DNA from: Diplolepis rosae
Lineage: Eukaryota > Arthropoda > Insecta > Hymenoptera > Diplolepididae
Direction: 5' to 3'
Assembly: GCA_030998225.1 (NCBI GenBank)
Contig: JAPYXD010000698.1
Coordinates: 6,427,001-6,491,000 of the forward strand
Length of the DNA stretch: 64,000 nt
Below are positions 16,258 to 55,800 of the stretch, in pieces (position 1 is the stretch's first letter; each line of letters begins with the position of its first letter). Below the pieces are notes generated by a model, which saw only the letters and a list, made by a program, of their open reading frames with translations, was not told the origin of the DNA and ran no database searches. The position numbers and the translations under genes were made by a program.

Positions 16258-17204
16258 AATTATTGAATTAAATGAGAGAATAAAAATACCCAAACAAAAG
16301 ATAGATATTGAAAAGAAAGAAAAAGAAAAAATTATCTCAATTCCTTACTATGGCACTATTTCTGAAAATATAAAGAGAGTTTTAAACAAATATCAAATAA
16401 ACACCATTTACAGAATAAATTCTAAATTAAACAGGTCTATCAAGAAAAAAACTTTCAAAAAAGATCTTTCGCAGAAATGGTTTTCATAAAAAAAGAAAAA
16501 AACAATAGTCTAAACAAAGTCTCAGATTTGGAACATTTTAACCAATCTTATAATGCTGTTTTGGAATTCCTTTTATAAAAGTTGAAAAAAATCCAATTAT
16601 TTTTTTCCACATACTTATGTGTTGGTTTCCATTTCTTACTTAATTTATAAATGAATGTAAGAATTTAATTTTACTTTTTTTAAAAACAGATGAAGGAAAA
16701 AAATCCCACCTTATCTTATGTTGTTTCCTAAATTTTATTTAGTTTTAAACAAATTTGACTTCTTATTGACTCCGTAATTTTAAACTTCGACGATACGCTC
16801 CTGTTCATATTATAGTAATAAGTAAATGACAATTTTAAAATTCAGTTAAGTCGTGAGCAGAGCCATGTGCTCTTGCTTTCAAACAAAATTTCATACTTGT
16901 TTAACCTTACAATGTTTGTAAATTATCATGTATTATATTTTTACTTTTACAATTTTTAAGGTACATACTTTTTTTATATAATAATACTTTTATAATATTT
17001 TATCTGTTACAATCGCTGTAAATCAATTTATTATTACAGATTTAAAAACTTAATACTAATGTTGGTAAAGTAATAAAAGCTTTTATTCCCTGATGAGGAG
17101 ATACATTGTGTTCTCGAAACGTTGGAACTGTTTTTTTTTTTTTAAATAAAATGACTTGGTCCGAAAGTGTCGTTTTTCTTTCAAACACATTTGATGTGTA
17201 CTAC
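16258..17204 (+). mobile_element. 5'-truncated Penelope-like retroelement fragment
   Basis: The insertion splits the foldback right arm with ACGTG repeated on both sides (16253-16257 and 17205-17209). Its first ~230 bp read in two frames as KIPKQKIDIEKK and then SIPYYGTISENIKRVLNKY and QINTIYRINSKL. This resembles the region after the reverse transcriptase domain in Penelope-like elements; the match is from memory. The downstream ~700 bp is AT-rich and ends in a hammerhead-like core and a T run. Frameshifts and truncation mean it is dead as a protein gene. Confidence 0.45.
17086..17127 (+). ncRNA. Hammerhead ribozyme-like motif
   Basis: Stem I 5' TTCC (17086-17089); CTGATGA core (17090-17096); an extra G; stem II GAGA/TCTC closing a short loop (17098-17115); GAA (17116-17118); the self-complementary ACGT of a minimal stem III (17119-17122); T as the nucleotide before cleavage (17123); and GGAA pairing back to stem I (17124-17127). 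All invariant hammerhead positions are present. It lies near the 3' end of a Penelope-like fragment, where such ribozymes are known. The very short stem III would need dimerisation or be weak. Confidence 0.55.
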
Positions 17205-17296
17205 ACGTGTCTATTTATTGTTGATAAAGAACGAAAAAAAATTATCTTGTTCAAATCTGCGACATCGACTGTCAATCTAATATGGAATGACCCATA

Positions 17297-19127
17297 TATG
17301 TAAAGTGGAGGAAATTATGACAGAGAATACAAGAAAGTGAATGACATCAGCTTGAACCTCCTTTAGAAAAAGAAGATTAGTGCAAATGTTACATAAAAAT
17401 TTAAGTGCAAATAATTTAGTAAAAGAATGAATTTGCTTGAAAGGGATTGGATTTATGTATAGATTAGTGTGTAAGCTTGTTATTACGTGTAGACGGAATT
17501 GTAATGGGGAACTGATGGTGGCTGTATAACACGAGATTCAAATGCCGCAAGCCAATCTTTCATAAATTCCCTATCCCTGGAGCATCCCGATGAAATGTGA
17601 TATTATCCACGTGCCTAATATTCAAAAAGCGTTGTTTCCGCTTTATCCCCTAGGGTTAAGAGGGCTTCTTCCATCCTCAGTCTCTATTCTCTTCATTTCG
17701 AATTCCCCGAATACGCTTGGCTCTGAGACTATGGCATAAGAAATCTGCGAGGCTCACTCGTATATTTTAATCAGGACCCCGTTCATCCCTCTTTCTCTCT
17801 CGATCCTACTCTAACAGTCTAAACCTCTTCTTCACCCTCCCTCGTCCTCTTTGTACTACCTATTCTTTTTCTTTCGTCGTTTTCCGCTCCGCCTTTACCA
17901 GAGGAGACTTATAAGAAGAGAATAAAAAGGCCCTCGGGTGGATGAAAAGAGCTGAATAACTTCGGGATAAAAGCCGAATAAATCTTTTTATTATCCCCGT
18001 CTCGTCCCACGTCTGCCCCACCTAGTCGTACCTACATAAGTACGCAAGGCTTTTTCTCGTATAAGAATCCTTGGTACTCCCTTCGCCGCTCCACTCAATA
18101 CTCCTACATCATTTCCATTCTTTCCTCCTCTCATCGCGGTCTTCTCAACCCTCATTTACTACTATTCGATTCGTCTCATCTTCCAAGTGGTTCACTTCTT
18201 CATAACAGTAGTCAATAGTTCGAAAATAGTTGAGAAGACAGAAAGTCAATAGCCATGGTTTTTTGTGCAAAAATTCAAGTATATTATCTCTTCTTCAATT
18301 AGAGTGGATATCAGAGAGTATTTCTAAGACAATAAGTTACAAATTTGTCATTCTTATCGATTTTTTAATTGAAACGTTTCCATTGACAAGTGTCTCTTAT
18401 CTGCAAGACGATAGACATTTATAGCATTGACAGAGAGTTGATTCAAGCGATTGAGATATTATAGTTCGAGTTTGAATAACGTGTTCGAATGTCAGGTATA
18501 TTGAATAGCTGGTATAATATCCTGAAAAAATTATCTCGATGTTTTTATTTGTAGAATGAGTATACATTTATGAAAATAACTATCTGAAAACATAAATACA
18601 TATCACCAGTAAACAAAATATTTATGTGTAAGACATAGTGTTCAATTTTTTGATAAAATTGAGATTCTTAATTCAATAGTCAATTGGGAATTTGCATATT
18701 TTTTTTAAAGTGATCAAAAAATGAAATTTGGGGGTCACATTTGCATACAAAATGTTTTCTGAATTTTTTAGTTAGTAATAATTTATTAATGAGGATAAGA
18801 AAAATTTTAATTTTAAATTATCTGAAAACGTTCCGGATAGAGTCGAATGTTTCCGATGATACAGTGACATCACGTCGTTATGTACAATCGCTCTGAGTCG
18901 CATCTTTGTATTGACGCCGATTGAAAATTCTGTAAAATGTCAAAAAAACGGCATATAAATGGTGTTTTGTCGATGGGTCTTATAATTCAACAAACCAAGA
19001 CACCCGAAATTTTTTTTCCAGTTCCGGTAAATCCGATTGTGTGAAATAAATGTTTTGAAAGTACACAACGCCGAAATAAGCCGGAAACTAGTAACATGTT
19101 TTTCTGCCAAGATCATTTTGATGTATT
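17297..19127. other. No gene; GC-richer island 17.5-18.2 kb
   Basis: Apparently single-copy DNA with pyrimidine-rich runs (about 17640-18180), then AT-rich sequence. No exon could be supported. Confidence 0.4.
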
Positions 19128-19465
19128 ACACTGATAGAAATAGTTCGGGAGTTTTAGCCATTCGGTTGTAGGTTGGGAATTTATAATTGTATTTATAAAA
19201 TAATATGTCTCTGAAGAACGCAGGATGTTGAATACAGAAATCAAAATATTGTAAGTGAAACTGGTCGAATCAGAAATATAATATGGGAAGGCGAACAATA
19301 AATTTTTCCATAGCAACCAATAATATGGTTGATTCGTTCATATTTATTCAGTTATAATCGGATGGTTAAAATACAAATCTCATATTGCTGTATCTATGCC
19401 AGCAATAAGGTAAGGTTAAATTAATCATAAATATCGTTGTAACAGCCATTCCTTTCTATCAGTGT
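19128..19465. mobile_element. MITE with ACACTGATAGAAA ends
   Basis: ACACTGATAGAAA at the left and TTTCTATCAGTGT at the right, 338 bp apart. No coding capacity. The ends resemble those of the ACACTGTTAGAAAT family. Confidence 0.6.
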
Positions 19466-21292: not shown

Positions 21293-21620
21293 CACGGAGG
21301 AAAATGGATATTGAAAAGTAGATATTCAAATAGGAGATATTCATCCATAATATCTAGATATTGACACGCAATATTAAAATATTTTTTTTCAATATATAAG
21401 ATTTTCCAAAGAAGTAACATTTGATATTCAGATTTAATAGTTTAGATATTGAAGCATGAAGTGCGCGCGCATATATATCATCGAAATCTAAGTGAATCAA
21501 AGATTGACATGCTTGCAGCGTGCCGGAAAGATAAATTTTGAAGGTTTATTAAAGTTTTCTTAGATTCTAATAAGTGTTTCTAATGGAATAAAAGTGATCG
21601 GGACTTTAACTTGAGATGCA

Positions 21621-21634
21621 GTAAGTAAAACATA
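21621..21634 (+). repeat. Target-site duplication, left copy
   Basis: GTAAGTAAAACATA, identical to 27536-27549. The uninterrupted sister element (14318-15249) carries this sequence once, which confirms the boundary. Confidence 0.9.
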
Positions 21635-22797
21635 AACTCCGCCATTGCCGGTCCCAAGCCCGGATGAGAAAGGAGGAGGGGGCACACAGACAGCAACATG
21701 ACACAACACATTACAGCGACACTAAACACAACACACCTAACAACCAAGAGAGCGTTCTGAGGGCGGGCAGGGTCTCGCCGAGGTGAACGCATGAGTCCAA
21801 GCACGGAGCAGACGCGTCCTGCAGCCCACCAATGGTAGTAGCCGCAAGGACTCTGCCAGCAGTAGGGCTGTTGCCGTCAGGATGGCTGCCAAGGGAGCCC
21901 TATAGACGGGCTTTTCCCTAGTGATGGGCCTGCCGGGCGCACGTACCACGACGGTTGTTCTGCGACTTTCAGGCGCGTGAGGACGCGGTGTGGAGCGAAA
22001 GCATCAGGAGACCTTGAACAGGTCTCTTGATGCCGAATGAACGTACACGGAGTGAATGCGGGGGGCCCCTTAATCGGGGTATCGCCCCAAATGCGTATGC
22101 GGCGATGACGCTGAACTTCCCGCGTGCGCTCTTGCGGTCACACTACAATCACATGCACGACACCGACACCCACACACATCAGAATGAATGGGACGCTGAG
22201 TGAATGAGGCTGCGGCCGGCGCCTGCTGGATATTCCCGATAGACTAGCCAAGGGAGGAGTAGTAGCCTCTCGACCAGGGTAGGACGCGATGTCAGTACCT
22301 CACCTCTGTGGAAGTAATATGGGTAACCGTAAGTCCCTCCGGTGTTCGACCGCGAAGGGCAAAGATCCCGTGAAACCACATGTTAATCTGGGAAAACCGC
22401 TCACGATCCTACTGTCTGGAGCCAATGTCGGGGTTGAAATCATGGACGTCCGGGCGCAGGAATGAAGGATTACCTGGTCAGTATTTCCTTATATCCGACG
22501 CTGCGTAGGATAAATCGCACACCGTCTAGCCTGAAGTCCGGGTCAGGTGTCGGGGCGGACCCGGCACCGCTCGGTCGATAGGGGTGACGTTAAACCTTTA
22601 GCATCATTATGGCGCGGGCCTATCCCGTAACCTTTTTTGGTAGCTTCATTTAATGTGCCGATAGGATCGACCTCCCGATAAGCCGCTTCTCGGTTTCGGC
22701 GCATATAACTAGGGATTTATACAGGCGGGGATAGTAGCCCTACTGCGGTAGGGCTCCCATGATGGGCGAACCGTCTTAAGACACGAGGAAAACAAAC
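21635..22797 (+). other. 5' leader of the R1-clade element
   Basis: GC-rich, 1163 bp, with no conserved ORF. In this clade the leader usually holds the internal promoter. The sequence around 21640-21660 (CCGCCATTGCCGG) is the 5' end defined by the target duplication. Confidence 0.7.
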
Positions 22798-24130
22798 ATG
22801 AACTCTGAAAGAAATAAAGGACATGGAGACGTGAAGGCGCCAGATGCGCACTCACACACTTCTCCAGGAGCTGAGGGATGGCAAGACGTCCTTCAGCTCC
22901 TGAAGGAGCAAAATGAAAAAATGGAAAGGTTAGCCAGGGCCCTCAGCGTTATACAACAGGGTATGCTGAGGAATAACCCTGGCTTCGTTAAAGACTCGGT
23001 GAACGAGGCAACTGAGGTGTTGAGCGGCATGCTCAACACCCACAAGTGCCTCCTGGAGAGCGGGGTGAAATTCCAGAAGAAAATGGAATCTCACTCCGCT
23101 ATAAAGAAATTGGGGATCTTCCAGAGACCACGTTCGGCGTCTCTGGGAGATACCCCAAAAAATCAGGCGAAGGGCGAAAAAAGATCTGCGCCCTCTCCCC
23201 CTCTGGAAAAAACTCCCAAGAGGGGGAAGGGTGGCTCTTCGCCCTCTTATGCCGAGGTGGCCACGAGCCAGCCCCCAAATAAAGAAGGGGACTGGCATGT
23301 GGTCTCAAAAAAAAGAAAAAAAAAAAAGAAAAAAAAAAGGAGAAAAGGGCGGAGGACCCTGCCCAAAAAGCGCAGGGGACCACCGCCACTCCTAAGTCGA
23401 AGCGCTCCACGCCCGCCAGGTCGGGCGACGCCATCAAGGTGTCGGCGAAGGACGGCCAGTCCTACGCCGACATCTTGAGGGAAATGAAGGCGAAGGTCGA
23501 CCCCCGGAAGGCAGGACTTGAGGTCCTGTCTATCCGGAGGACCAGGAAGGAAGAAGTCCTTTTGGTCCTCAAAAAGGGGGAGACGTTTCGGCCTTCCGAA
23601 AGGAGCTCGACCTGGCGGTCGGGGAAAGGGCGCAAATTTCAGCCCTGGTCTCGACGAGGTCCCTCGAAATTAGGGACCTCGACGAGACCGTTGAAAAAGA
23701 AGAGGTTGTGTCTGCCCTGTGCTTGGCATTGGGCAGACCGGCTTTTGAGGGGTCCTGCAGGCTCTTCACCCGCTTTGGTGGGGTGAAGACTGCAGTCATC
23801 AGGCTAGCTGAGGCAGACGCCGCGCGTCTGCTTCAGCTAGGCAAGTTGAGGATCGGGTGGGAAGAGTGCCGCATTCGCGAGCACCTGGAAGTCGCCCGCT
23901 GCTTCAGGTGCCTTGGATACGGCCACGGGTCCCGGGGCTGCAGCAACCCCGACAGGAAAAACGCCTGTTGGAGATGCGGCGCCACGGGACACTTGGCCAG
24001 GACCTGTAAGGCGCCACCAAGGTGCCTGTCATGCGCAGACAGGGGCGACAAAGATGTCGCCCATGTGTCGGGGAGCGGCTCCTGCCCGGTCTTCCGGGAA
24101 GAGCTTCGGAGGTTGAGAGGCAGGAATTGA
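22798..24130 (+). CDS. ORF1, gag-like nucleic-acid-binding protein (two frameshifts)
   Basis: ATG at 22798. The N-terminal part has a helical, possibly coiled-coil stretch (LLKEQNEKMERLARAL, about residues 34-50), a Ser/Pro-rich linker and a long Lys run. Reading shifts frame in the A-rich run near 23310-23345, continues with GQSYADILREMK (from about 23457), and shifts again in AAAAAGGGGG near 23571-23580. The last part carries three metal-binding knuckles: CFRC...H...C from 23900, CWRC...H...C, and a longer-spaced third with CLSC. Such proteins bind element RNA and form the retrotransposition particle. ORF1 ends with TGA at 24128-24130 and overlaps the ORF2 frame. Both breaks are in homopolymers, so they may be assembly errors. 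Confidence 0.85.
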
Positions 24131-27100
24131 AGTTCCTGCAGCTCAACCTCGGAAGGGGGAAGGATGCCCAGGACCTCCTGATGCAGACTGCCAGGGAGAG
24201 GGGGCTGATGTGCTGCTCATTAGTGAGCAGTACAAGTGGTCCGATAACTCTGCTTGGTATCAGGATGCATCAAGGAGGGCCGGCATCCTTGTTTGTAACC
24301 CTGATTTGGGCGTCGGGGACTTCCTGGAGACCGACGCGGGGTTCGTCTGGGTGGAGGTGGCGGATGTGCGTGTGTACAGCTGCTACTTCTCCCCCGGCGA
24401 TCCCTTCGATGTCTTTGAGACCCAGATACTCCTACTTGAGGAAAGCATCCGTGAGGCCATTGGGCGATCCATCATAGTGGGTGACTTCAACAGTAAGTCG
24501 CCCGAGTGGGGTGAAGCCCGCCTAGATAGGAGGGGAATCTTGGTTCGCGAGATGGTCGCTAGGAACGAACTGATCGTCTTGAATCAGGGCGGGGAATTTA
24601 CGTTCAGACGAGGAGCGGGGGGGTCAATAATTGATCTCACAATTGCCGCACCTCGCCTCGCTTCAAGGATAAGCGACTGGTCGGTCCTCGAGTTAATAAC
24701 CTTGAGTGACCACCGTTGCATCGAATTCACACTAGAACAACGGTGTCAGGCGGTAGATAAGGGTAGGGGCGGCGAAGGAAGGAGCCCCTCCTGGAACACG
24801 AAACGACTCAGCAGGGAAAGACTTCGCGAACACCTCGAAGAAACCAGGCTCATCGATGAGCTTGGTTGGGTCTGCCCTGCTGGGTCGTTTGAAGCTGCTG
24901 TGCGATCGGTGAGGCAGAAGGTGGTCGCGGCTTGCGACTACTCGATGCCTCGCCGTGTGCGCAGGCAAGCCAAGGGTTCGATGTACTGGTGGAACGACCA
25001 GTTGGCAGCCCTACGTCGAGAATGCCTCGCAGCGCGGCGAAAATTCACCCGTTCAAAGGGGGATGCTACGCTGCACGAGGCATGGAAAGGGGCAAAATCA
25101 GCTTTGAGGCGAGGCATAAAGAAAAGCCGACTTCAATGCTGGAAAGACTTGATCGGTGAGGTCGAGAAGAACCCATGGGGTCTCGCCTTCAAAATAGTCA
25201 CCAAGAGATTGGTGGCTAGAAGAAAGACCCCGGGCCTGGATAATCCCGATCGAGTCCAGTACATTGTGCGTAGCTTGTTTCCACACGTGGAGCCGTTCCA
25301 AAGACAGGACCGAAGTTCCTGCGTGGTCCGGCGCGAAGAACTCTTCACTCTCGAAGAACTAAAGAGAGCGGGTGGAAGGCTTAAGGCAAATACAGCGCCG
25401 GGTATCGACGGGGTGCCGAACGAGATCCTCAAAGAGGTGATCGGGGCGTACCCAGAGATCCTCCTAGAAGCCTTTAACTCCTGTCTTCGGGAGGGCAGGT
25501 TCTTCGCAAATTGGAAGAAGCAGAGGTTGGTCCTGCTGAGGAAGGGCAACAAACCTCTAGGGGTTGCCTCGTCGTATAGACCAATATGCTTATTGGATAC
25601 GATGGGGAAGCTTCTGGAGGAGTTGATTCTACAACGGCTTCAGGCTCTCTTGGTCGGGGAGAGCGGGCTCTCGGAAAACCAGTTCGGATTCAGGAAAGGC
25701 AGGTCCACTGTGGACGCCATCCAAGCTGTGGTTAACATCGCCACAAATGCAAGAAAAGGAACTGGTAAGCGTAAGGGATTCTGTGCGTTGATTAGCATTG
25801 ACATACGCAATGCGTTCAATACCGCGAGATGGAACATCTGCATCGAGGCGATGGTGCGGAAAAAGGTTCCAGACTACCTGTTGCGAATGATAGATGACTA
25901 TCTGAGCGACAGGTGGGTGATATATGAGGGCGACAAATGGTCTCTCAAGGAGGAGATGACATGTGGCGCCCCTCAAGGGTCGCGGGTGGGTCCACTCGTT
26001 TGGAACGTCATGTACGACGATTTCCTGCGCATGGACCTGCCTGCTGGAACGAGCATCGTCGGCTTCGCGGATGACGCACTTGTCGTGTGCGCCGCTGACG
26101 ACGTTGGAATCCTAGAGCTGAGGATCAATGAAAGTCTGTGGCGAGCGAAGCGCTGGTTGGATGGCAGAGGTCTTAAAATGGCCCCTGAGAAAACCGAGGC
26201 TTTGCTCGTTACGGACAGGAGATCCTTCCAATACCCGAGGATCGTTCTCGGAGAGCATGAAGTCGAGTGGAAAACAAGCATTAAGTACCTGGGGGTGCAG
26301 CTGGATCGTAGGCTTAGCTTTGGCGAACACCTAAAGATCGCAGCCGCCAAAGCCATCCAATGTGGAGCGATCTTGGCCCGGCTTATGCCAAACATTGGTG
26401 GACCCAGGGAAGCGAAAAAGAAGATTGGTGGCGAGCGTGGTCCATTCGAAGCTGCTTTATGCTGCTCCGGTCTGGGCCAATGCCTTGCAAAACCATGCTA
26501 TCCAGAAGAAGCTGTTCTCGGCGCAGAGACTTGTCGCGCTGAGAATAGTTTCGGCATATAGATCTATCTCGACGAGCGCTGTGCTGGTCCTGGCGAGCGT
26601 CCCGCCAATAGATTTATTGGCGGAGGAAAGGCAGGAAACCTTTCAGCTTCGCAAGGAGCTTACCTGCGCCGACCTGCAGGAAATCGCTCGCGCGAAGGAG
26701 GCCATCCGCAAGGATGGAAGGCGCAGACTCGTCGAGAAATGGCAGATGAGATGGCATGGTGAGCAGACAGGGAGATGGACCTACCGCCTGATCCCGGAGC
26801 TCGCCACCTGGCTGAACAGAAAGCACGGGGAAGTCGGCTTTTACTTGGCACAAGCGCTCTCGGGCCATGGCTGTTTTAACGCGTACCTGAGGCGCTTTAA
26901 GAAGAGAGACGAGGAGACGTGTTGCTACTGCGATTCCCCGGTGGATAACGCAGAGCACGCACTCTTCGTCTGCGCAAAATGGGGTGTGGCTAGGGGGGTC
27001 CTCGCTCAGGCGGTGGGTTCCGAACTTACTTCTGACACGATGGTCCCCCTCATGCTCCAGTCTGAACGGTTCTGGACGCTCATCGAGTCATTCGTCACAC

Positions 27101-27162
27101 TTGTGATGAAGACGAGAGAACTTGATGGTCGTCAAGAGCGAAACAACGGGGAGGGCCAGTAG
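24131..27162 (+). CDS. ORF2, endonuclease-reverse transcriptase (two frameshifts)
   Basis: The frame overlaps the end of ORF1, with no certain start codon. It reads KFLQLNLGRG, shifts frame in GGGGG at about 24203-24207, then stays open for over 730 codons. Endonuclease motifs: LLISEQY with the catalytic Glu (24225-24227), GDFNSKSPEWG (about 24480), and SDHR (24705-24716). Reverse transcriptase: APQGSRVGPL (about 25970) and the catalytic FADD (26064-26075). A second frameshift in GCGAAAAAGAAG near 26412-26423 moves to the frame with VVHSKLLYAAPVW and ending with a CCHC-type motif CCYCDSP...H...C (about 26920-26975). Stop at 27160-27162. It nicks target DNA and copies its own RNA onto it. Confidence 0.9.
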
Positions 27163-27535: not shown

Positions 27536-27549
27536 GTAAGTAAAACATA
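27536..27549 (+). repeat. Target-site duplication, right copy
   Basis: GTAAGTAAAACATA immediately after the poly(A) tail, identical to the left copy. One extra A could belong to either the tail or the duplication. Confidence 0.9.
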
Positions 27550-28500: not shown

Positions 28501-29793
28501 CTAGGTTGTTCAAAAAGTTTTGAAAGCCACATCTATAGAGCAGTAGAAGAACCAAAATTTCTACGCCATTTTAAGATTTCATCTTTCATTGAACATACCC
28601 AAAGTGTCATTCCACTCTGTCAATTCATTGTTTGTTTACAAGCCATTTGAAGTTGACGTGTCTGTGTATTTTTGTACAATGGAAAAAACCGAATATCGTG
28701 CAGTGATAAAATTCTTTGTTTTGGAAGGTTTATCAGCAACGGAAATTCATACAAAAATGGTGAAAGTGTTAAAGAAGGCTGCTCCTTCATTTCCAACTGT
28801 GCATCGATGGGTTTTAGAGTTTAGACGTGGTCGAAAAAGCGTTGAAGACGATCCACGCTCAGGACGTCCAAAAAGTGCATCAACACCAGCATTCATAGCA
28901 AAAGTACAGGATATGGTTTTGGAAGATCGTCGATTGACCGAGAGAGATTTAGCAGAGGCCCTAGACATCTCATTAGGCAGTGTGAGTCATATTTTACGTG
29001 AAGTTTTGGGTTTCAGAAAGCTCTGTGCACAATGGGTGCCGCATTCGCTCACAATGGAACAAAAACACGTTCGAATGCGACTTTCTGAGCAACATTTGGA
29101 GCGTTTTCGAAAGGATAAAAAGGATTTTTTGCGTCGATTCATCACTATGAATGAGACTTGGGTCTTCCATCATGATCCTGAATCAAAACAAAAGGCTAAG
29201 GAGTGGTGTGAACCAGGCACTTCGGCACCAAAGCGAGTTCGTGTCCAGAAATCGGCGAAGAAGGTGTTAGCATCAGTTTTTTGGGATGCAAAAGGGATTT
29301 TGTTGGTGGATTATCTCCAAACTGGCAAAACAATAAATTCTGAATATTATTGTAACCTTTTGGATCAATTGGATGCAAAAATTCGTAAAAAAAGACCCGG
29401 TTTGCAGAAGAAAAAAATCCTTTTTCATCAAGACAATGCACCCGCTCGCACAGCTCAAAAAACCATCACTAAAATAACCGAATTAAAGTACGAATTGTTG
29501 CAGCATCCACCTTATTTGCCTGATTTAGCTCCCTCTGACTTCTGGTTGTTCCCACACCTCAAAAAATTCCTTCGTGGGAAGCATTTTTCATCAAACGAAG
29601 AGGTTATAGCCGTCGTAGAGGAGTATTTTGCAGGCCTTGCAGAAAGTCACTTCCATGATGGGATAAACAAGTTGGAAGACCGTTGGGCCAAATGTATTGA
29701 TCTTATGGGAGATTATACTGAGCAATAAAAGTGATTTCACCAAAAAAAAAACGTATTTTCATTTCCGCTTTCAAAACTTTTTGAACAACCTAG
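28501..29793 (+). mobile_element. Full-length mariner transposon
   Basis: 27-bp inverted repeats are identical at both ends (28501-28527 and 29767-29793, starting CTAGGTTGTTCAAAAAG), flanked by the TA target duplication (28499-28500 and 29794-29795). Length 1293 bp, typical for mariner. It contains one intact transposase frame. Confidence 0.93.
28679..29728 (+). CDS. Mariner transposase, first catalytic Asp replaced by Asn
   Basis: 349 residues, the usual mariner length, from the ATG at 28679 (an upstream in-frame extension is ignored because it is not conserved-looking). N-terminal paired helix-turn-helix DNA-binding region (about 1-110), linker WVPHSLT, then the catalytic domain. The DD34D triad positions are N158 (in ITMNETW), D252 (in HQDNAPA) and D287 (in LAPSDFW), with 34 residues between the last two. 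The first position is Asn where the family has Asp, a G-to-A change in the codon at 29150-29152. The frame has no stops, so this is otherwise a young copy. Loss of this Asp is expected to abolish strand cleavage, so the protein is probably inactive but may still bind the ends. Confidence 0.9.
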   Translation: MEKTEYRAVIKFFVLEGLSATEIHTKMVKVLKKAAPSFPTVHRWVLEFRRGRKSVEDDPRSGRPKSASTPAFIAKVQDMVLEDRRLTERDLAEALDISLGSVSHILREVLGFRKLCAQWVPHSLTMEQKHVRMRLSEQHLERFRKDKKDFLRRFITMNETWVFHHDPESKQKAKEWCEPGTSAPKRVRVQKSAKKVLASVFWDAKGILLVDYLQTGKTINSEYYCNLLDQLDAKIRKKRPGLQKKKILFHQDNAPARTAQKTITKITELKYELLQHPPYLPDLAPSDFWLFPHLKKFLRGKHFSSNEEVIAVVEEYFAGLAESHFHDGINKLEDRWAKCIDLMGDYTEQ

Positions 29794-29795
29794 TA

Positions 29796-31518
29796 TACGT
29801 AGTTTAACCGTTTCTATACCTGCAAGTTATACATGGTTCGTTTAGAGCTTAGTTTTCTTATATACTAATGGAAGAATGTTGAACCGCCTGCAAGAACGTT
29901 TTCACTACTAGAGGTCTCAGTAGCCACCTATTGAGAAGAGAACGTACTAAACTCAAATTCGAAATAAGAATCACAAGAATAAAAACTACAAAACCTCAAT
30001 AGAACGTCGCATATCCGTTCGATCTGCAAAATTTTGAAGATTCAAAAACGACAATCAAAATTTTAGAATTAAAAACTCAAATTTCAACCGAATTAATATC
30101 AGTTTGACAATTTGGTAGTAAATGCCGAAATACCTTGAAAGGTAAAAATTATTTTTCGTCTACTTCTTAAAATCTGTAAAAGTATTAATTTATTTTACTC
30201 ACCTGTGAGTAAAAGAATCATCATCACAATAAAAATGAATTGTAAGTGTCAACGAATAATTAATTATCGATCAACAGAAATTTCTATCTTATTTTATGAA
30301 AGATACAAAATTTGTCGCCGTTAATTTATTATTGACAAAGAAGCAGGTCACTGAAAATCATTATTTCGATTAATCTTTGACATCTTCAGAAAGTTGACTG
30401 ATTTTTTCATTTTTGTAATAGTATAAGTTATATTATATATATATATTCTCCAGGAAGCCGTAACTCGTCGTTTATCATTATGCTGCATAAATTCAAAAAG
30501 AGTCAGAATTTTTCCGAATAAAAAACGACTTTAGCGTGAAAATTATTGTTTTGAAAACTTCAACTTTTAAATTAGAACAAATTTTTCTACCATATAAATT
30601 TCATACCACTACTCATACAATATATTTCTCTTTTTATAACCAAGCAAAATTGTATTTCACAAGTTCAACATAAAAATTCTCATTATTTTTGTTTCACTTA
30701 TTTACCATTTAAAAACACAAATTTATAAATAAATTATATTATATTTATTTATAAAAAGCTCATATTCCCATTATAAAAATTTAATATTACTGCAAACACA
30801 AGCGCAAAAATTATTACAGTTAATAGAAGTATTCACAAAGAAATTTTTTGATTTGTACTATCTTATATTTAAAAGATTTCTATAAAAATACCTTATATTG
30901 AAAACATTTTTATAAAACACTCACATTCTTACAGCCGATAGTAATTTATCTTATCATTTTATCCATTTTTAAGGTTTTAAATGCTTATTACCTCTATTAT
31001 TTTTGTATAATTAAATAATTTCTCTACTAATTTATCCTACTTAATAATTTTCCTACAGAAAATATTAAAAGTTACTCCTTTGAAAAAGAACAAGTCGAAA
31101 TAAAAGTAGTACATCTTAATATTTCTACAATAAATAGTCACGTAGTTATACCACATTTTTCCTACTCTGGTACCAACTTTAGTAATTTTTTCTACAAAAA
31201 GTTTTGCATATCAGTTTTTATGAGTAATGTCCTTTTTAATATAATTATAGGTGGAGTATATGGCAAAAAACATTCGTTTTTATAGACTATACTATATTAT
31301 TCAATAGATTGAATCCGAAAAACCGTGTTCTGCGAATAATTTAAAATAGTACTACTATAATCTCCTTTGATTAGACGATTTTTAACTTTTGTTTAATTTT
31401 ATTAAAAATAGGAAAACTGGCCTGTCTCTCGTCAGCACCTTATTATAAATGGGTCTGAAAAGGGTACTCTCTGCACGGTACAAGGAAAATGATACATTTT
31501 CTCTAAAACCATATATGT
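29796..31518. other. No gene recognised, AT-rich
   Basis: Very AT-rich with a short (TA)n tract near 30430. Short T-rich frames only. Nothing supported. Confidence 0.45.
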
Positions 31519-31956
31519 TTAAAGTGACATGCTTGATGACATGTCTAGTATTATATTGACCCAAATTCATAGAATTTTTGTTAATTTCTTGTTATTTTGG
31601 CATAGGGTCAGTTTCATCTTATTTTATTTGAAAAAAATGTCACTATTAGATGTAAAAATGCGCAAAAAGTTTTTGAATTCTATGATAATTTTTAATTTGA
31701 TTATTTCCTATATTCTAATGTTCTACAGAAATTTTGAATTAATCTTTGAATTTATGGCAGTGAAGAGGGCCCCCATATGTGGCCGAAACGTTTGCCTTTC
31801 TGTCTTTTTGCGCATTTTTACATCTAATAGTGACATTTTTAATCAAATAAAATAAGATGAAACTGACCCTATGCCAAAATAACCAGAAATTAACAAAAAT
31901 TCTATGAATTTGGGTCAATATAATACTAGACATGTCATCAAGCATGTCACTTTAAA
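31519..31956 (+). mobile_element. Palindromic hammerhead-family element (438 bp)
   Basis: TTTAAAGTGACATG at the left and CATGTCACTTTAAA at the right. About 130 bp of each arm is inverted (including ATATTGACCCAAATTC, GGCATAGGGTCAG and ATGTCACTATTAGATG). The right arm carries the hairpin and GAAACGTTTGCC core at 31756-31796. No coding capacity. Confidence 0.7.
31756..31796 (+). ncRNA. Hammerhead-like motif with one core mutation
   Basis: GGCA/TGCC stem I, GGCC/GGCC stem II, GAA, ACGT, T. The first core base is G (GTGAAGA) instead of C, so this copy is probably catalytically poor. Confidence 0.4.
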
Positions 31957-32349: not shown

Positions 32350-32816
32350 TTCTTTACTAGGTATAGGACAATAGTCTTCTTCAAGGAGGAAAAGAACCTC
32401 TCAAGATGTTTTTTCCATTGATAACCAATTTGGCATCCTTCTTTAATAATAAAATGTTCTAAAAAATTCCGGTCGGTTCGTGTGCAATTTTTTTAATGTT
32501 TTTTCATGTATCCGGTTTTTTATTCACAGTGAACTCTAAATATTTTTTCAATTCATGATGCTGCATACTGGACTACTTCATTTTGAATTGCAAGCTATGA
32601 GATAAGTTTTTCAATTCTATAATAATCCTTATTTTAATTATCTCCTATATTCTAATGTTTTAAAGAAATTTTGAATTAATCTTTGAATTTATGGCACTGA
32701 AGAGGGCCCCCATATGTGGCCGAAACGTTTGCCTTTCATTCTTTTTGCGCATTTTTACATCTAATAGTGACATTTTTAATCAAATAAAATAAGATGAAAC
32801 TGACCCTATGCCATAT
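32350..32816 (+). mobile_element. Hammerhead-family repeat, truncated at both ends
   Basis: Shares TAGGTATAGGACAATAGTC with 7157, the CCGGTCGGTTCGTGTGCAA block with 47870, TGCTGCATACTGGACTACTT with 47960, and the core and ATGAAACTGACCCTATGCC tail with the other copies. Non-coding. Confidence 0.65.
32693..32733 (+). ncRNA. Hammerhead ribozyme-like motif, intact core
   Basis: GGCA (stem I 5') at 32693-32696; CTGAAGA at 32697-32703; an extra G; stem II GGCC/GGCC around CCCATATGT; GAA at 32722-32724; ACGT at 32725-32728; T at 32729; TGCC (stem I 3') at 32730-32733. Every consensus core position is present. Confidence 0.5.
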
Positions 32817-45584: not shown

Positions 45585-45790
45585 TCCACTCTCTAAATTT
45601 GAATCAGTCAAAATCTACTGATTATCAGTGAAATTTGACTGATTCAAAAAGCTAAAATGAGGTTCCTGTAAATCAGTCAAATTTCACTGATTATTTCAGT
45701 GAAAATTGACTGACTTGACAGTGAAAAAAGTATTTTTCACTGATGAATTAGTGAAAAAATACCGGGTTTTTCATTTTTTAGTAAGCGAGA
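45585..45790. repeat. AATCAGTGAA-motif repeat cluster
   Basis: Many alternating copies of AATCAGTCAAATT/CACTGATT, related to the element at 62737-62982. The left edge has CTCTAAATTTGAATCAGT; the right edge is unclear. Confidence 0.55.
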
Positions 45791-47084: not shown

Positions 47085-47473
47085 AACAACTAACCGAAAA
47101 TTTCCAGTTAATATTACTTTGACGTAAATTTCTCTCAGTTTATTAAGAGTCAACAAAACATTTGAAATCGTTATCAAACATCTCACAACATAAAAAATAT
47201 TTGTAAATTAAAATTTGTGGCTTACTCCCTTCTTAATAAAGACATGATTACGCGTAATTTATCATACTAAATCATTTGTATGCTAATATAAATGGTTCAA
47301 ACATAAAACTTAGCTAACAAAACCAACATTATTTCGAACAATAGGCGAAAAAATTTGGAAATTTAATTAATTGATATAATGTTTGTTCATTTCTTTGGCA
47401 TAGGGTCAGTTTCTTCTTATTTTCTTTGATTAAAATTATTATTACATTTAAAAATGCGCAAAAAAGAAAGAAA

Positions 47474-47514
47474 GGCAAACGTTTCGGCCACATATGGGGG
47501 CCCTCTTCAGTGCC
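47474..47514 (-). ncRNA. Hammerhead ribozyme-like motif, intact core
   Basis: Minus-strand GGCA, CTGAAGA (47504-47510), G, GGCC/GGCC stem II, GAA, ACGT, T, TGCC. Identical in core to 48095-48135 and pointing the opposite way. Confidence 0.5.
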
Positions 47515-48094
47515 ATAAATTCAAAGATTAATTCAAAATTTATGCAAAGAATTACAATATAGAAGATAATCAAAAAAGAATTATAATAAAAATTAAAAAC
47601 TTATCACATAGCTTGCAATTCAAAATGAAGTAGTCCAGTATGCAGCATCACGAATTGAAATATTACGTGAAGTTCACTATGAATAAAAAACCGGGTCAGC
47701 AAAGCCACATGTCCCGAGTCGGTTTTTAAAACAGTTCAGATCATTCTGTGAGAGACGCCGGTTTTAAAGTCTTCACGAGAAGTTTTCATTAATGTAAAAC
47801 TTGTTCGCGTTTTGCCATTGTGAACCAATTTGGCATCATTCATTAATAATAAACATTTTTTGAAAAAAATTCCGGTCGGTTCGTGTGCAAAATTTGTTAT
47901 GTTTTTTAATTTATCCGGTTTTTTATTCATAGTGAACTTCACGTAATATTTCAATTCGTGATGCTGCATACTGGACTACTTCATTTTGAATTGCAAGCTA
48001 TGTGATAAGTTTTTAATTTTTATTATAATTCTTTTTTGATTATCTTCTATATTGTAATTCTTTACATAAATTTTGAATTAATCTTTGAATTTAT

Positions 48095-48135
48095 GGCACT
48101 GAAGAGGGCCCCCATATGTGGCCGAAACGTTTGCC
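48095..48135 (+). ncRNA. Hammerhead ribozyme-like motif, intact core
   Basis: GGCA 48095-48098; CTGAAGA 48099-48105; stem II with GGCC closing at 48120-48123; GAA 48124-48126; ACGT 48127-48130; T 48131; TGCC 48132-48135. Confidence 0.5.
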
Positions 48136-48295
48136 TTTCTTTCTTTTTGCGCATTTTTAAATGTAATAATAATTTTAATCAAAGAAAATAAGAAGAAACT
48201 GACCCTATGCCAAAGAAATGAACAAACATTATATGAATTTGGGTCAATATAATAATAGACATGTTACCAAACATGTCAATTTGTTAATTAATTGA

Positions 48296-50082
48296 GTTGG
48301 GAGTTTTCGAGTACTCGAAAAATGTTGAGCTTTCAGAAAAACTAAAATTCAGTAAAGATTCTTATTTTTCGTACACTCTTAATTTCAAATGCAAAAGTCA
48401 TCTTGAATGAAAAGATATTTTTTTCGTCATATACCGTATAACTGTAAGAAGAGGAAGGTACGCTACTGGAATATGGCATGTATGAACCTCCAACACCGTA
48501 GATGTAAATATAGGTAACAAGGGAGGAGCAAGAAGGAGAGAGAGTGAGAGAGAAGAAGAGAGTACATAGATGTCGGTTCCACACTTCACCCTGCGTCCCT
48601 AGGCCCCGTCATCATCCATCTGTTCACCATCGTGTTCCGCAAAACCACTGCACTATTCAGTAGCGCGGCACTCCGTGTCGCCCCTTTGATCTTCGAGCCT
48701 TGAGGCATGCTCGGTACATATACTCATGTACCGGCTCACACAAAATCTCGACATACACACACTTCAACAATCCACAGTGTCGGATATGACACGGTCGCGA
48801 CACTTCGCGTTTCAGCGCACTCACTGCAGTATTCTCTTACCTTCGTATATATATGTATAGTGTACACTATGTATGTAATTATTTCCCCTATGTATGCATT
48901 TTCTTTAGATATGTCTATGTGTAAGTGAACTCAACTCTTGCTATCATATGTAGATGCGGGCTTTCAGATTAATAACGCGGCGCGCAAGGTGACGAGCTGC
49001 TTTTCGAGTTGAAAGAGGCGAAGAAGTGGAACAAAAAAAAGGAGAATGAGATGAGAAGGTCGCGAATACGGTATGTAGTATCATTTCGAGAGCACCCGAT
49101 TATACATGATGATGACGTTCGCCTCGAGCATGCACCGAGATGAAGACAAAATCATTCCGCGAGGCCGCTAGCTTGATTATCATTTCCAAGGAAAAAATTC
49201 TTAATTACACTCAACTCAGTGTGAAACTATACTCTCGGACTTGGTTGGGTATAATTATGTGCAATTTGAAATTTAATTTTAAGAGTAAAATGCACTGAAA
49301 GGTTAATACGAAATATTATTACTTGATAAATAACTCAAACAGGATTGTGACCTCAAATCAGCTTTTTCATGGACATTCATATGTGTATGTATGTTATAAA
49401 CTTATCATAAATCCATGAAATGTATGGAGTCAATCCCCATGAAAGCTGCAATTTTCACGACCCATATGCTCCATAAACAATACCCTAAGTCACTAGAGCT
49501 AAGGGGATTGCCGATGAAAATGGATCGGTTCGATACCCCAAGGGTCACGAAGGTGAAGAAAGAAAAAATAGATATAGGGTGACGAGTATCGTACGACGGA
49601 TGCATTAAAGATTTAAGGAAAAGCAATTGAGCTAAGTCTGCACTATACCAGTATAAGTACTTAAATGGTTACCTTCATTAAATCGTGATGAACCCTAGCT
49701 TTCAGAACTATGAACTACAGGTCTCGTATTAGTCTGTGTTCGCACATTTGTAAATACAATTAGATTGATGCCTTGCTAGTGACTGTACACTCTACAGTCT
49801 ATACAGTTTCCACGTAACGTTTCACGGCCATTCAACCCATGACCTGTACTAGGGTAGTTACGTTCACCCACAGGAAAATGCCCTGACGGTATATTCCTAG
49901 TACAAAGCTTCAATGTTCGAATAATTTACGCATAAAGACAACGCAATCGTTTTCTCAGCTGGTCGATTAGAAATATCTTTTATAACGGAATAGTCACAAT
50001 GCGCTCGGTAGTATGTAATGCCAGTTCATTGTAATTTTAGATATCAATATGCACCTATCAGATACTCAAATACTTTTTACTT
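48296..50082. other. No gene; single-copy island 48.4-49.9 kb
   Basis: GC-richer around 48580-49170 with AGAGAGAGAG-type purine runs near 48535. No exon supported. The frame at 49405-49626 (minus) has no recognised domain. Confidence 0.4.
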
Positions 50083-50230
50083 ATACTATTAGAAATATCT
50101 ATGCTAATTTCCCGAAACACGTGACTGTAGTTTTATATAGATACAATTTCATAAAATTAAGATAGGATTTCATAAAATCCAGTTACTTTTTAGTAAAATC
50201 AAGAAACGATTTCTTAATTTTCAATTACAA

Positions 50231-51680
50231 TGTGTTGAAAAGTCTGATATTTGTATCTGGAAATTCTGAAACTTGTAACAGGAATAATTTTACGTTTTGT
50301 GTGACTGAAGTTTTATTTAGTTACAATTTCGTAAAATTATGATAGAATTTCAGAAAATCCAACTACTTTATAGTAAATTTAAGAAAAAATTACTTAATTT
50401 TCAGTAACAAAGTGTTGAATATTCTGATATTTGTTTCTGGACATTATGAAACTTGCAATAAGAATAATTTTACGTTATGTGTAATTACAATTGCGTAAAA
50501 TTAAGATAGGATTTCAGAAAATCCAGTTACTTTATATTAAATTTAAGAAACAATTTTTTAATTTTCAGTTACAAAGTGTTGAAAACTCCGATATTTGTAC
50601 CTGGAAATTCTTAAACTTATAACATCAGGAATAATTTCACATTTTGTGTGACTGAAGTTTCATTCAGTTACAATTTCGTAAAATTATGATAGAATTTCAG
50701 AAAATTCAGTTAATTTATAGTAAATTTAAGAAAAAATTACTTAATTATCAGTAACAAAGTGTTGAATATTCTGATATTTGTTTCTGGACATTATGAAACT
50801 TGCAATAAGAATAATTTTACGTTTTGGGTAACTGAAGTTTCATTTAGTTACAATTTCGTAAAATTATGAAGAATTTCAGAAAATGCAGTTACTTTTTACT
50901 AAATTCAAGAAACGATTTCCTTATTTTCAATTACAATGTGTTGAATATTCTGATATTTGTATCTGCAAATTCTGAAACTTGTAACAAGAATAATTTTACG
51001 TTCCGGGTAACTGAAGTTTCATTCAGTTACAATTTCGTAAAATTAAGATAAAATTTCAGAAAATCAAGTTACTTTTTAGTAAATTTAGGAGACAATTTCT
51101 TATAATTTTCAGTAATAAAGTGTTGAATATTCTGATATTTGTATCTGGGAATTCTGAAACTTGTAACAGGAATAATTTTACGTTTTGTGTGACTGAAGTT
51201 TCATTCGCTACAATTTCGTAAAATTATGTAGAATTTCAGTAAATCCAGTTACTTTATAGTAAATTTTAGGAAAAATTTCTTAATTTTCAGTAACAAAGTG
51301 TTGAATATTCTGATATTTGTTTCTGGACATTATGAAATTTGCAATAAGAATAATTTTACGTTTTGGGTAACTGAAGTTTCATTCAGTTACAATTGCGTAA
51401 AATTAAGATAGGATTTCAGAAAATTTAGTTACTTTATATTAAATTTAAGAAACAATTTGTTAATTTTCAGTTCCAAAGTGTTGAAAATTCCGATATTTGT
51501 ACCTGGAATTTATAAAACTTGCAGTAAGAATACTTCTACGTTTTGGGTAACTGAAGTTTCATTTAGTTACAATTTCGTAAAATTATGAAGAATTTCAGAA
51601 AATGCAGTTACTTTTTACTAAATTCAAGAAACGATTTCCTTATTTTGAATTACAATGTGTTGAATATTCTGATATTTGTA
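50231..51680. repeat. ~180-bp tandem array, about nine units
   Basis: The landmark GTTGAATATTCTGATATTTG (with variants) recurs at about 50231, 50411, 50577, 50760, 50939, 51120, 51301, 51480 and 51658. The step is 166-183 bp. Each unit also has TTTTACGTTTTG and GTTACAATTTCGTAAAATTA. Units differ by point changes and small indels. Confidence 0.85.
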
Positions 51681-51865
51681 CACTGAGAAATCAGTTTCTT
51701 TGAATCATAGAAACATTTCTTTGATATACGGTAAAAGAAAAAATTTCTTTAAATTAAAGAAAGTTTTGTTAATTAAAAAAAAATTTCTTTGATCCAAAGA
51801 AATAGATTTGTTTACATTAACGTATATCGAAGAAATGTTTCTTTGATTCACAAATACTGTTTTCT
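51680..51865. mobile_element. Short foldback MITE inserted in the array
   Basis: ACACTGAGAAATCAGTTTCT at the left; ATGTTTCTTTGATTCACAAA at the right is inverted to the left interior. Related in ends and TTTCTTTGATT motif to 37946-38309. It interrupts the last tandem unit. Confidence 0.6.
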
Positions 51866-52245
51866 GGATGTATCTGGAAATTTGGAAACTTGTATCAAGA
51901 ATAATTTTACGCTTTTTGTGAATTTTTATACAGTTGTTTGTAACTGAAAATTTTGTGACAGTTTCTTAATTTTATGATAAATTTTATGAAAATTCTCTTG
52001 CAATTTTATAATTTTAGGATAAACTTTATAAAAATTCTATTACAGTTTGCTAGTTTTAAAATACGTACATTATATGAAAAATCAGTCGAATTCCATAATA
52101 TTAAGAAAATTTTTAGAGAATTCATTACATTTTCCGCAATTTAAGATACCTTTACTCAAAAACATCATAAATATTGTCAAATTTTACGTTCTCTTGGCAA
52201 CATAAAAATATTGTAATTTCCCAAACATTTCTATTAAGAGTGTAA

Positions 52246-53861
52246 AGCTCAAATATTTAAAAGCTTTTCATATATACATATAATAGGGATAATTTGATGT
52301 AAAATATTTAAAGTTTAGACGCGAGTTTGATGAATGTTAAAATTTAGTAATGGCCAATTATAGGTCCAGGCTTTTAATTCAAGACTCCGCTACCAGGCTT
52401 GGACCAATAAGTTCATTGCTATCTTGAAGAAATAAAAATTTATAAAATTTGTATAAACTATTTACATTAAATATATGCATAAAATTAATATTTGTTAAAT
52501 ATAAAATTTGTTAATGATGGATAGCCTTTCATTCAATATAACTAAAATTTATTTACATTAAATTAAATTTCTATTTGATCAATACACAAATAACTTTTTA
52601 TTCAATATAAAATAGATTTCTTTTTGATGTTCAGAATATATCACTGCAATTTAATTAAGTAATATGTGACAGAATTTGATGATTAAGTTCGAGAAGCTTT
52701 TGTCAAATATTTAATCTGGCTCGCTCGGTTAAAATTATAACGCCGATAAAACTTGTCAGGAATAATCTGCCTTGTCCTTATTCTCAGAGATAAAAGAAGG
52801 CGAGAAAGGTGATTATGGTAATAGGGAGGGGTAGGAAGTTGAAAATACGTGGGGTGAGTAAATAAGGAAATAAATAAGCGACCTTGCACATTACCTACGG
52901 TGGTCTGTAATGGCGTAGGGTGTACCGTGGTAGTTATACGACGAGAGGTGGGGCGCTCTTTAAACAGTCCGTCGCCCATTTTGCACCCTTGCGTCTGCCA
53001 GTGTCGCCGTCTTGGTGTGAAAGCCACTGTCGTAAAACCGCACACTTAATTTGCCTTGCAAAATTTAAGCTTTCTCTTTCTCTCTTGGGATGCAGGTTGT
53101 ACTGTAAGGTACAAGGTAGAAAACTAGAGGCCACCCCCCTTCCACAGAGATGGTTGTGTCGCGAGAGGGTTGAATCGAGAGGGCGGTGGTGGTGAGATAA
53201 AGAGGAAATGCAGGGGTGGAGAAGAAGTGGGGGTGTACGAGCAGTGGCGAGAGAAGAAAAGTGTGCTTAAAATATTAAAGCCGGAAGCGCTTGCAAGGAG
53301 GGTTCTTTGTTCCTTGGTGCTAGAGAGGGTTTGCTTCGCCGCTAGAAAGGGGCTAAAAGGGTAAGGGTGAGCGCAAACAACCTACCGTGCAAAATAATAT
53401 ATGAAATATGCACCGCGGTTGTTCTGCAGAATTTTCTCCTATAAAAGTTTTCCCTTCTCCTCATCCTCCTCCTCCTCACAACCACCCTCTTGCTCTTTCT
53501 TCTCCCAGGAACAAGTCATACCCAGTGAACGTTGGCGCTAATGAAAAACCTTGAATTTTCCATGAAGGAATTACGTCCTCGCTATTCGTACACGTATACT
53601 AGCTAACTCAACCCCCGTACTTTACACAGTATATACACTTTCTACCGTACTTTGCTTCCTTTTTTTAGCCATGTCGCGAACTCTATCGCATTATTCCCCC
53701 TCGTCTGAGGGCAAAACTAAAAAGCTCAGCTTGAGCTTAAAAATGAGCGAAGTTGTCTCACAGTTGGAGTGGGAAGACAAGTTTCTCTAAAAACTTCGCT
53801 ATTTTTAATTAATCCAATCTTTTAACGAATGCTATTTGGTTCATTATTTTATTATTGTATA
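52246..53861. other. No gene; GC-richer island 52.74-53.5 kb
   Basis: AT-rich, then a GC-richer region with overlapping short frames on both strands. None carries a domain, and no splice pattern could be supported. Confidence 0.4.
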
Positions 53862-54940
53862 TGGGTCATTCCATATTAGATTGACAGTCGATGTCGCAGA
53901 TTTGAACGAGATAATTTTTTTTCGCTTCTTTATCAACAATAAATAGACACGTATTTCTTTTTTTGGCCAAAAAAAATTTGTTTACAAATATACGATTTTT
54001 CAAATTTTCTAAGCAATGATATTTTCGACATAGCAAGCGCACTTTCAAGCCTGTTTATCTTGAAATTAATTGTTCGCACAAAAATTTTTCCAAATTACGA
54101 AAATTAGGGTTTTGACTCTTCTTTACAGAGATTGTTGCGAAAAAATTTTTTTAAACATTTTGTAACATACAAAAGTAAAGAAATAAACGCTAAATCGTTT
54201 TTTCCCAAATTTGTCCCCTTTCCAAATTTATTTTTTCGTGTATTTAGATTCTTTGAAGTCTGTTATACAATATGAGAATCGAATAAAAATGGCTGGATCA
54301 TTGATGCGGAAGTTATGGAATTTTGAAGAGCCTCGCGCGGCCTTGCGCGCAATCCGGGCACTTCCACGCGCGGCGAGCGTTTACCTTTACTTTTAGCGCT
54401 AATAACTTACGCCCGGTAAAATGCTCGCCGCGTTTGGAAGCGCCCAGATTGCGCGCGAGGCCGTGCGAGGCTCTTCAAAATTCCATAACTTCCGCATCAA
54501 TGATCCAGCCATTTTTATTCGATTCTCATATTGTATAACAGACTTCAAAGAATCTAAATCCACGAAAAAAAAAAATTTCGAAAGGGGCCAAATTTGGAAA
54601 AAACGATTTTGCGTTTATTTCTTTACTTTTGTATGTTATAAAAAATGTTTAAACAATTTTTTCGCAACAATCTCTGTAAAGACGAGTCAAAACCCTAATT
54701 TTCGTAATTTGCACAATTTTTTGTGCGAACAATTGTTTTCAAGATAAACAGGCTTGAAAGTGGGCTTACTATATCGAAAATATCATTTCTCAAAAAATTC
54801 GAAAAATCGTATACTTGTAAAAAAATTTTTTTTGATCAAACAAAAAAATACGTGTCTATTTATTGTTGATAAAGAGCCGAAAAAAAATTATCTTGTTCAA
54901 ATCTGTGACATCGACTGTCAATCTAATATGGAATGACCCA
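53862..54940. mobile_element. Second full-length 1.08 kb foldback copy
   Basis: TGGGTCATTCCATATTAG at the left and the exact inverse at the right, flanked by TA. The centre again has GCGCGCAATCCGGGC-type GC-rich DNA. Relative to 9843-10919 the central spacer lies in the opposite orientation. Confidence 0.8.
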
Positions 54941-54990
54941 TATACTTGTATATATGGGACTTTATTTTACCTTGCTATAGATAATGATTA

Positions 54991-55528
54991 AGGTAGTTCA
55001 TCCAGGAAAATTAGACCTCAGGCAAAAATAGATAATTTTGCTTTCAAGAATAGTCTAATTTGAAAGAGAAAAGATTATTTTTCATGAAAAAAATTTGAAA
55101 CACAAAAAATAATTTTATTAATAAATTTTATTTTTGCTCAAAGTTATTTTCTTATCGCTTCTTAGCAAATTTTAAAAAATTATTCGATTCTAATAAATCA
55201 CGAATCATTTTTTCAGTAAAAAGTTTTCCACAACTTCACCGTTTCTGATTTTTAAAAATAAATTCTTTAATGGCTAAAACCATTAAAAAAATATTTTCTA
55301 AAACGAAATTTTTATGAACAAATTGCTGAATTTGATAATAATTGATTCATTTCCAAAAATTGGAAATGGTTAAGTTGTAAAGAAAAAAATTACTTTTCTG
55401 TGTTTCAGATTCTTTTCATGGAAATTAATCTTTCTCTTACAAAATAGCCTTTCAATAATAATATTGCTATTCTTGAAAGCAAAATTATCTATTTTTTCTG
55501 AGGTCTAATTTTCCTGGATTAACTACCT
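54991..55528. mobile_element. Foldback MITE, AAGGTAGTT family
   Basis: AGGTAGTTCATCCAGGAAAA and inverse, flanked by TA. 538 bp; the arms share the AATTAGACCTCAGG segment with 46417-47084. Confidence 0.75.
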
Positions 55529-55710
55529 TAATCAAATTTCTTGTTTTTCTATGACTGAAAACTGATAATCTGTACAGTTTTTTAAACGGTATAATGGCTG
55601 GGATTTTTCATATTTTAATTTTTAAGGTAATGTTTATTTAATAATTAAAAGTAGTCTAAATTGTATTGACCCTCTATTTTAATAAAATGGTACGTTGTTG
55701 GAAAAAATTG

Positions 55711-55800
55711 GCTTTAGGGTCCAAAAATAATTAAGTCAATTTAATGAGATGTTTCGGCTGAGATTGGAGCCCTCATCAGTGATATTTATTATAAAATCTA
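55711..55800 (-). repeat. Hammerhead-family repeat end, second family
   Basis: TTGGCTTTAGGGTCC followed on the minus strand by a hammerhead-like core. Relative of 9491-9600. Confidence 0.55.
55743..55779 (-). ncRNA. Hammerhead-like motif with GGCT/AGCC stem II
   Basis: Minus strand: CTGATGA (55773-55779), G, stem II GGCT/AGCC around CCAATCTC, GAA (55753-55755), ACAT, then C as the nucleotide before cleavage. The core is intact and stem II differs from the other families while staying paired, but I could not find a convincing stem I. Confidence 0.45.

Follow-up and report, generated by a model that had tools for sequence, protein, structure and literature searches.

Hammerhead ribozyme-like motifs in terminal regions of several Penelope-like element families of Diplolepis rosae

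Introduction

Which mobile element carries the short hammerhead-like motifs that recur in a 64,000-nucleotide stretch of the Diplolepis rosae genome (Hymenoptera; assembly GCA_030998225.1, contig JAPYXD010000698.1, positions 6,427,001 to 6,491,000), and are these motifs ribozymes or accidents of sequence? The whole stretch is referred to below as the window, and positions are counted from its first letter. A sequence-only reading had noticed in it several repeats with the hammerhead core CTGANGA, one extra G, a 4-bp stem (stem II) and GAA, and had suggested that they may be new members of the hammerheads known from Penelope-like elements (PLEs). In this it was right: the motifs are real, ribozyme-like and located in PLEs, and they represent further families of a known kind, with nothing supporting a new kind of ribozyme. 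Judged from sequence, they are very probably minimal type I hammerheads in the terminal regions (pseudo-long terminal repeat, pLTR, or 3′ region) of several PLE families bearing a GIY-YIG domain, and would putatively cut as dimers paired through ACGU.

Results

Hammerhead copies in the window

All five motifs named by the sequence-only reading were found in place, with CTGANGA starting at 17090(+), 32697(+), 48099(+), 47510(-) and 55779(-); for the plus-strand copies, that reading had counted from where the stem I strand begins, 4 nt ahead of CTGANGA. In each of the five, exactly one extra G and GAA accompany a stem II of four perfect base pairs, which is GGCC/GGCC in three copies, GAGA/TCTC in one and GGCT/AGCC in one, while stem I is TTCC/GGAA in the 17090 copy and GGCA/TGCC in the GGCC copies. 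Four copies had been credited with ACGT and a pairing stem I; ACGT is indeed present in four of the five, and the 55779(-) copy has ACAT and an unpaired stem I.

A covariance model built in this analysis (R1), whose alignment includes the 17086, 32693 and 55749 copies, detected ten places in the window at E < 0.01. The GAGA-family hammerhead (17086..17127(+); E = 3.1e-12), delimited from the sequence and by script, comprises stem I (17086-17089/17124-17127), the core (17090-17096), the extra G (17097), stem II GAGA/TCTC, GAA and ACGT (17119-17122), with the predicted cut after T 17123. Its GGCC-family counterpart at 32693..32733(+) (stem I GGCA/TGCC, stem II GGCC/GGCC, ACGT; E = 1.1e-13) has its predicted cut after T 32729. 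Two further GGCC-family hammerheads form the left (47474..47514(-)) and right (48095..48135(+)) halves of an inverted pair, both with E = 4.8e-14, and the GGCT-family copy at 55749..55783(-), in which stem II is GGCT/AGCC, is decayed (E = 3.5e-15).

A degenerate copy with GACTC/GAGTC had also been reported at 9549-9572. It is a hammerhead, with the make-up CTGATCA-G-GACTC-N6-GAGTC-G-GAA, but its strand had been misread: this decayed GACT-family copy lies at 9524..9584 on the minus strand (E = 1.3e-6) and shows homology to copies of the sampled loci L002, L011, L021 and L016. At least four other copies had been missed, namely a GGCC-family hammerhead starting at 31760 with a core C->G change (GTGAAGA; 31750..31809(+), E = 2.7e-11), another of the same family in which GAA and ACGT are separated by a four-base insertion (1612..1677(-), core at 1665, E = 7.3e-7), a decayed GGCC-family copy recognized by homology (7460..7521(+), E = 0.00047) and a decayed relative of the GACT family, likewise recognized by homology (8752..8811(-), E = 0.0078). 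To these may be added a weak GGCC-family fragment holding just the stem II part (11643..11669(+); homology, E = 0.069).

Abundance and covariation of the motif

A script searched for CTGANGA followed, after 0-2 extra bases, by a perfect 4-bp stem II and GAA. It found six places in the window, each with a single extra G, compared with a mean of 0.2 (maximum 2) in 100 dinucleotide-preserving shuffles; when AC was also required after GAA, five places remained against a shuffle mean of 0.03 (maximum 1). In the source genome (757.7 Mb in 428 contigs), the pattern CTGANGAG-N12..24-GAAACGT, which fixes the core, the one extra G and ACGT and leaves both stems free, had 15,198 exact matches (7,471 forward and 7,727 reverse), whereas the same pattern read backwards had 43 (27 forward and 16 reverse). 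Model R1 detected 11 copies at E ≤ 3.7e-7 (2 of them in its own alignment) in a 220-kb sample chosen by place on the same contig (two stretches beside the window and 20 spaced by 1 Mb), i.e. about one per 20 kb.

Both stems covary. In 12 sequences hand-picked for diversity, in which eight pairs were scored across stems I and II, 89.6% of the 96 cells held standard pairs versus 58.5% after shuffling; two-sided changes occurred in all eight pairs, as in just 2 of 500 shuffles, and sliding the partner by 1-3 columns reduced pairing to 15.6-45.8%. A second set comprised every exact-core match in the sampled loci and the window, after removal of duplicates and of matches less than 60 nt from an end. 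Its 25 rows contained 15 distinct stem combinations, which were paired in 87.5% of cells versus 53.7% when shuffled (maximum 69.2% of 1000 shuffles), with stem I covarying as well as stem II. An alignment with gaps falling inside stem II (A2) was excluded from these counts. The earlier proposal that stem II changes its bases between families while keeping its pairing is therefore borne out by the 25 rows and by the loss of pairing in slid registers.

Among 47 distinct strings drawn from the first 100 places listed, decayed copies included, 31 formed a stem II with four or more base pairs at the one-extra-G offset, whereas two did so at offset 0, two at offset 2 and none at offset 3, and six Watson-Crick stem II types were represented. 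Hammerheads cleave after NUH triplets. The base before the predicted cut, which the pattern leaves free, was T or C in all 25 rows, giving GUU (18/25) and GUC (7/25), of which GU itself is dictated by the search pattern. ACGT, required by the pattern elsewhere, was present in most sampled copies even in a scan allowing mismatches at this position.

Penelope-like elements as carriers

A GGCC-family inverted pair with hammerheads 7.4 kb apart (L035) encloses an interrupted open reading frame (ORF) with a reverse transcriptase (RT) domain (RVT_1, E = 2.9e-7) and a GIY-YIG domain (E = 2.6e-7), the frame being broken between the two pieces. A search with the RT part yielded 268 homologues at E ≤ 1e-10. 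Among the 120 listed, the named ones come from insects, mainly ants, sawflies and mosquitoes (approximately 31-48% identity), and the closest are unnamed (up to 85% identity); the unnamed insect proteins carry RVT_1 and similar domains. When the L035 pieces were used as queries, partial PLE coding was also detected between the hammerheads of L039 (GGCT), C1 (L023/L024, GTTGG), L036 (GTTGG) and L037 (GAGA-like), so that RT and/or GIY-YIG coding lies between inverted hammerheads at five of the six loci searched. With this coding found inside them, the inverted pairs were no longer read as marks of a DNA transposon bearing terminal inverted repeats.

Locus L037 holds remnants of a PLE RT and GIY-YIG domain between two hammerheads of the same family as the 17090 copy. 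Because positions 16257..17209(+) of the window are 82-84% identical to L037, we place the 17090 copy in a decayed, 5′-truncated PLE, which includes a remnant readable as the C-terminal (thumb) part of the RT (approximately 16274-16486(+)). The link to PLEs made by the sequence-only reading thus holds. The RT-like peptide of the window had no homologue at E ≤ 0.1 in the protein database and no Pfam family; a weak Bud3_N match near the motifs (E = 0.00063) stayed below its cut-off and was attributed to chance.

Element ends and the predicted cut

Adjacent same-family places within 12 kb, counted among the first 100 places listed with families labelled by eye, were arranged -+ in 19 cases, ++ in 10, +- in four and -- in two. 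Two 5′-truncated copies in the window form a head-to-head inverted pair, with 99.1% identity between the arms 47369-47694 and 47915-48239; a GGGTC 'tail' prolongs this pair at its right end alone. Inverted arms (31518-31669 and 31804-31956, 98% identity) also surround the 31760 copy, and there the left copy retains just what lies downstream of the hammerhead. Arms were 80.7-99.3% identical across nine inverted loci; in flanks read by eye, a GGGTC-like tail was present at one end in six of these, at both ends in one and was ambiguous in two. In the seven loci with a placeable hammerhead, the shorter end was 65-121 nt beyond the predicted cut; the 31,760 copy ends 163 nt beyond it. As these copies extend beyond the cut, they were made from RNA uncut at that site. 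Direct arrays of GGCC copies occur in steps of approximately 1.06-1.09 kb on C27 and of alternately 1.06 and 1.79 kb on C4. Direct or inverted arrangement and 5′-truncated head-to-head copies, both found here, are the features of PLE pLTRs. The tails likewise agree with the optional one-ended tail of 30-40 bp of PLEs.

Discussion

Relation to known hammerheads and Penelope-like elements

The PLE hammerheads of Cervera and De la Pena (2014) are minimal, lack helix III and loop-loop contacts and lie in pLTRs (PMC6155905, PMC7761336, PMC7229834), and a coral genome contains more than 6000 hammerhead motifs of both minimal and canonical kinds (PMC7229834). The copies described here are alike in being of the minimal type in PLE pLTRs, with thousands of copies as in some animals, whereas the D. 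rosae genome holds further families and more than 15,000 exact cores. They also resemble the small PLE-associated variants of Lunse, Weinberg and Breaker (2017), which are minimal type I hammerheads with helix III absent or very short, are reported to cleave as dimers and belong to the minimal PLE class for which a double hammerhead with a stem I strand swap has been proposed (cited in PMC7761336 and PMC6466107); this comparison is by description, and the constant extra G and fixed ACGT found here may or may not form part of their consensus.

The arrangement of the elements follows that of the Penelope families of Adineta vaga, with head-to-head inverted pLTRs, a tail on one end, 5′-truncated copies and partial tandems, the published PLE pattern; the target-site duplications of 8-10 bp described there were not clearly discernible in our elements (PMC3846280). 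The word hammerhead has 0 occurrences in the available text of that article (PMC3846280). A further known system is PAc, the Poseidon element of Anolis carolinensis and the single PLE characterized in vitro, whose in vitro cleavage required protein and was dispensable for insertion, and of which both DNA strands were extended (PMC11167929). RT starts there at 111-118 bp and the cut lies 26 bp into the ORF, i.e. by subtraction RT starts approximately 85-92 nt past the cut (PMC11167929). The present elements are similar in that the hammerhead lies upstream of the presumptive RT start, PAc also having an optional 30-40 bp tail and most copies here ending 65-121 nt past the cut. They differ in that PAc is a vertebrate element; the ribozyme of PAc overlaps the ORF start.

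Putative dimer and possible role of cleavage

The sequence-only reading had taken the palindromic ACGT as a sign of a dimeric form, which agrees with the published work. A dimer would also follow from the sequence, as the four bases of ACGT cannot by themselves make a closed, looped stem III. Two copies, in tandem in one transcript or on two RNAs, would pair via ACGU/ACGU and swap stem I strands, and the resulting double hammerhead would cut after the T or C following ACGU, probably with the help of a PLE protein. Most window copies are 5′-truncated or decayed, several of them in head-to-head inverted pairs with outer 3′ ends past the predicted cut, and such ends fit reverse transcription starting downstream of the ribozyme.

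It is conceivable, if rather unlikely, that the ribozyme is a self-limiting or protein-gated switch and not a tool for making templates. A cut between the element body and the RT start region would then sever the template from its own start site, and only RNA escaping the cut would yield inserted copies. The ACGU dimer would make cutting concentration-dependent, damping transposition when transcripts are plentiful, and fold-back (head-to-head) copies, in which the ribozyme could pair with its own antisense, would evade the switch.

Evidence against and alternative explanations

Several observations weigh against minimal PLE hammerheads that cut as dimers. The window motifs amount to three independent families, the GGCC copies being a single one, so that the six script places provide fewer than six independent cases, and core conservation is not independent evidence because the search pattern itself selects intact cores. 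Under a stricter shuffle of 25 distinct arm pairs, full pairing was seen in nine, compared with a mean of 3.8 and a maximum of likewise nine over 2000 shuffles. Neither at gathering scores nor at E ≤ 10 did Rfam scans of the window report a hammerhead; the canonical type I model (RF00163), for which ACGT leaves no possible loop, likewise had no window match at E ≤ 10, and its scan of the genome, without a match, is uninformative as it found none in 14 control genomes either. Folding of single sequences gave no support (z-scores of 0.05 to -1.50 for five stretches). In 11 of 11 copies the nearest-neighbour energies, which do not model the hammerhead core, were higher for the double hammerhead than for the best fold of the dimer, and higher too than twice the monomer fold; they do not favour the double hammerhead over other folds. 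As to the carrier, the inverted pair of L038 (GACT family) had no PLE coding at E ≤ 1e-3, no part of the window directly matched the L035 ORF at the same threshold, and a Pfam search of frames around the window motifs, with stops read as X, detected neither RT nor GIY-YIG. The target-site duplication to be expected of PLEs was clear at best once, as a 13-nt direct repeat (L039), the direct repeats of 5-8 nt at other loci being no better than chance in AT-rich DNA. Finally, none of 67 alignment boundaries lay within 3 nt of the predicted cut, in a small set with overlapping loci and reciprocal hits in which five of the eight boundaries after the cut stem from an unrelated repeat beside the 17090 copy.

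Chance matches in an AT-rich, repeat-filled genome might be invoked given the three families of the window and the unremarkable folding, but 15,198 exact matches versus 43 backwards and the covariation leave this next to no probability, and the backwards-read and slid-register controls rule it out. The boundary result also fits a different function, in which the motif now serves as a structural or binding element (e.g. an RNA hairpin recognized by a PLE protein near the RT start) and its hammerhead form is a relic. Copies ending 65-163 nt past the cut agree with this, as do the PAc ribozyme mutants, which still insert, and the PAc RNA reads, which do not stop at the cut (PMC11167929). We regard such a relic as improbable: stem I covaries like stem II and T or C precedes the cut in 25 of 25 rows, a better fit to a cleavage site, and in PAc mutation of the core abolishes cleavage, which a compensating pair partly rescues (PMC11167929). 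That the small families (GGCC and GACT) are metazoan retrozymes, i.e. small retroelements with circular RNAs and canonical type I hammerheads, and not PLE derivatives, could be read from the direct GGCC arrays on C27 and C4 and from the GACT pair of L038 without detectable PLE coding. It is more improbable still, as a closed stem III is absent, head-to-head inverted pairs are common, the GGCC family includes a full PLE ORF (L035) and retrozyme repeats are described as tandems of approximately 150-450 bp (PMC7229834).

Minimal PLE hammerheads in D. rosae would add several PLE families and more than 15,000 exact cores from one genome. As Rfam hammerhead models report none in the window, annotation pipelines relying on them would miss such copies. 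Since the positions of copy ends relative to the predicted cut can be determined across the genome, the families also offer a natural data set for the role of the ribozyme in PLE transposition.

Other features of the window

A long interspersed nuclear element (LINE), nearly complete, lies at 22780-27159(+), its ORF1 having a zinc knuckle and its ORF2 combining endonuclease and RT (PF14529, PF00078). Approximately 1.1 kb upstream it is preceded by a Twister-P1-like match (21630-21684(+); 37.9 bits versus a gathering score of 67.2, E = 1.1e-4) containing the exact 14-mer GGTCCCAAGCCCGG, which was present in 0 of 39 sampled loci. In PMC7761336, work in preparation is mentioned on truncated twisters located at the 5′ end of RTE retrotransposons. 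An uninterrupted mariner-type transposase frame (PF01359, HTH_48) occupies 28547-29725(+), and repeats of approximately 180 bp form an array at 50082-51934. tRNA-derived, SINE (short interspersed nuclear element)-like units follow one another in steps of approximately 322 bp at 56393-57594, with three tRNA-model matches, and one more lies at 59853-59924. Finally, a nearly perfect palindromic repeat of approximately 1.1 kb, with arms up to 96-98% identical, was detected in two copies (9837-10925 and 53845-54945), and part of it recurs beside the 17090 hammerhead.

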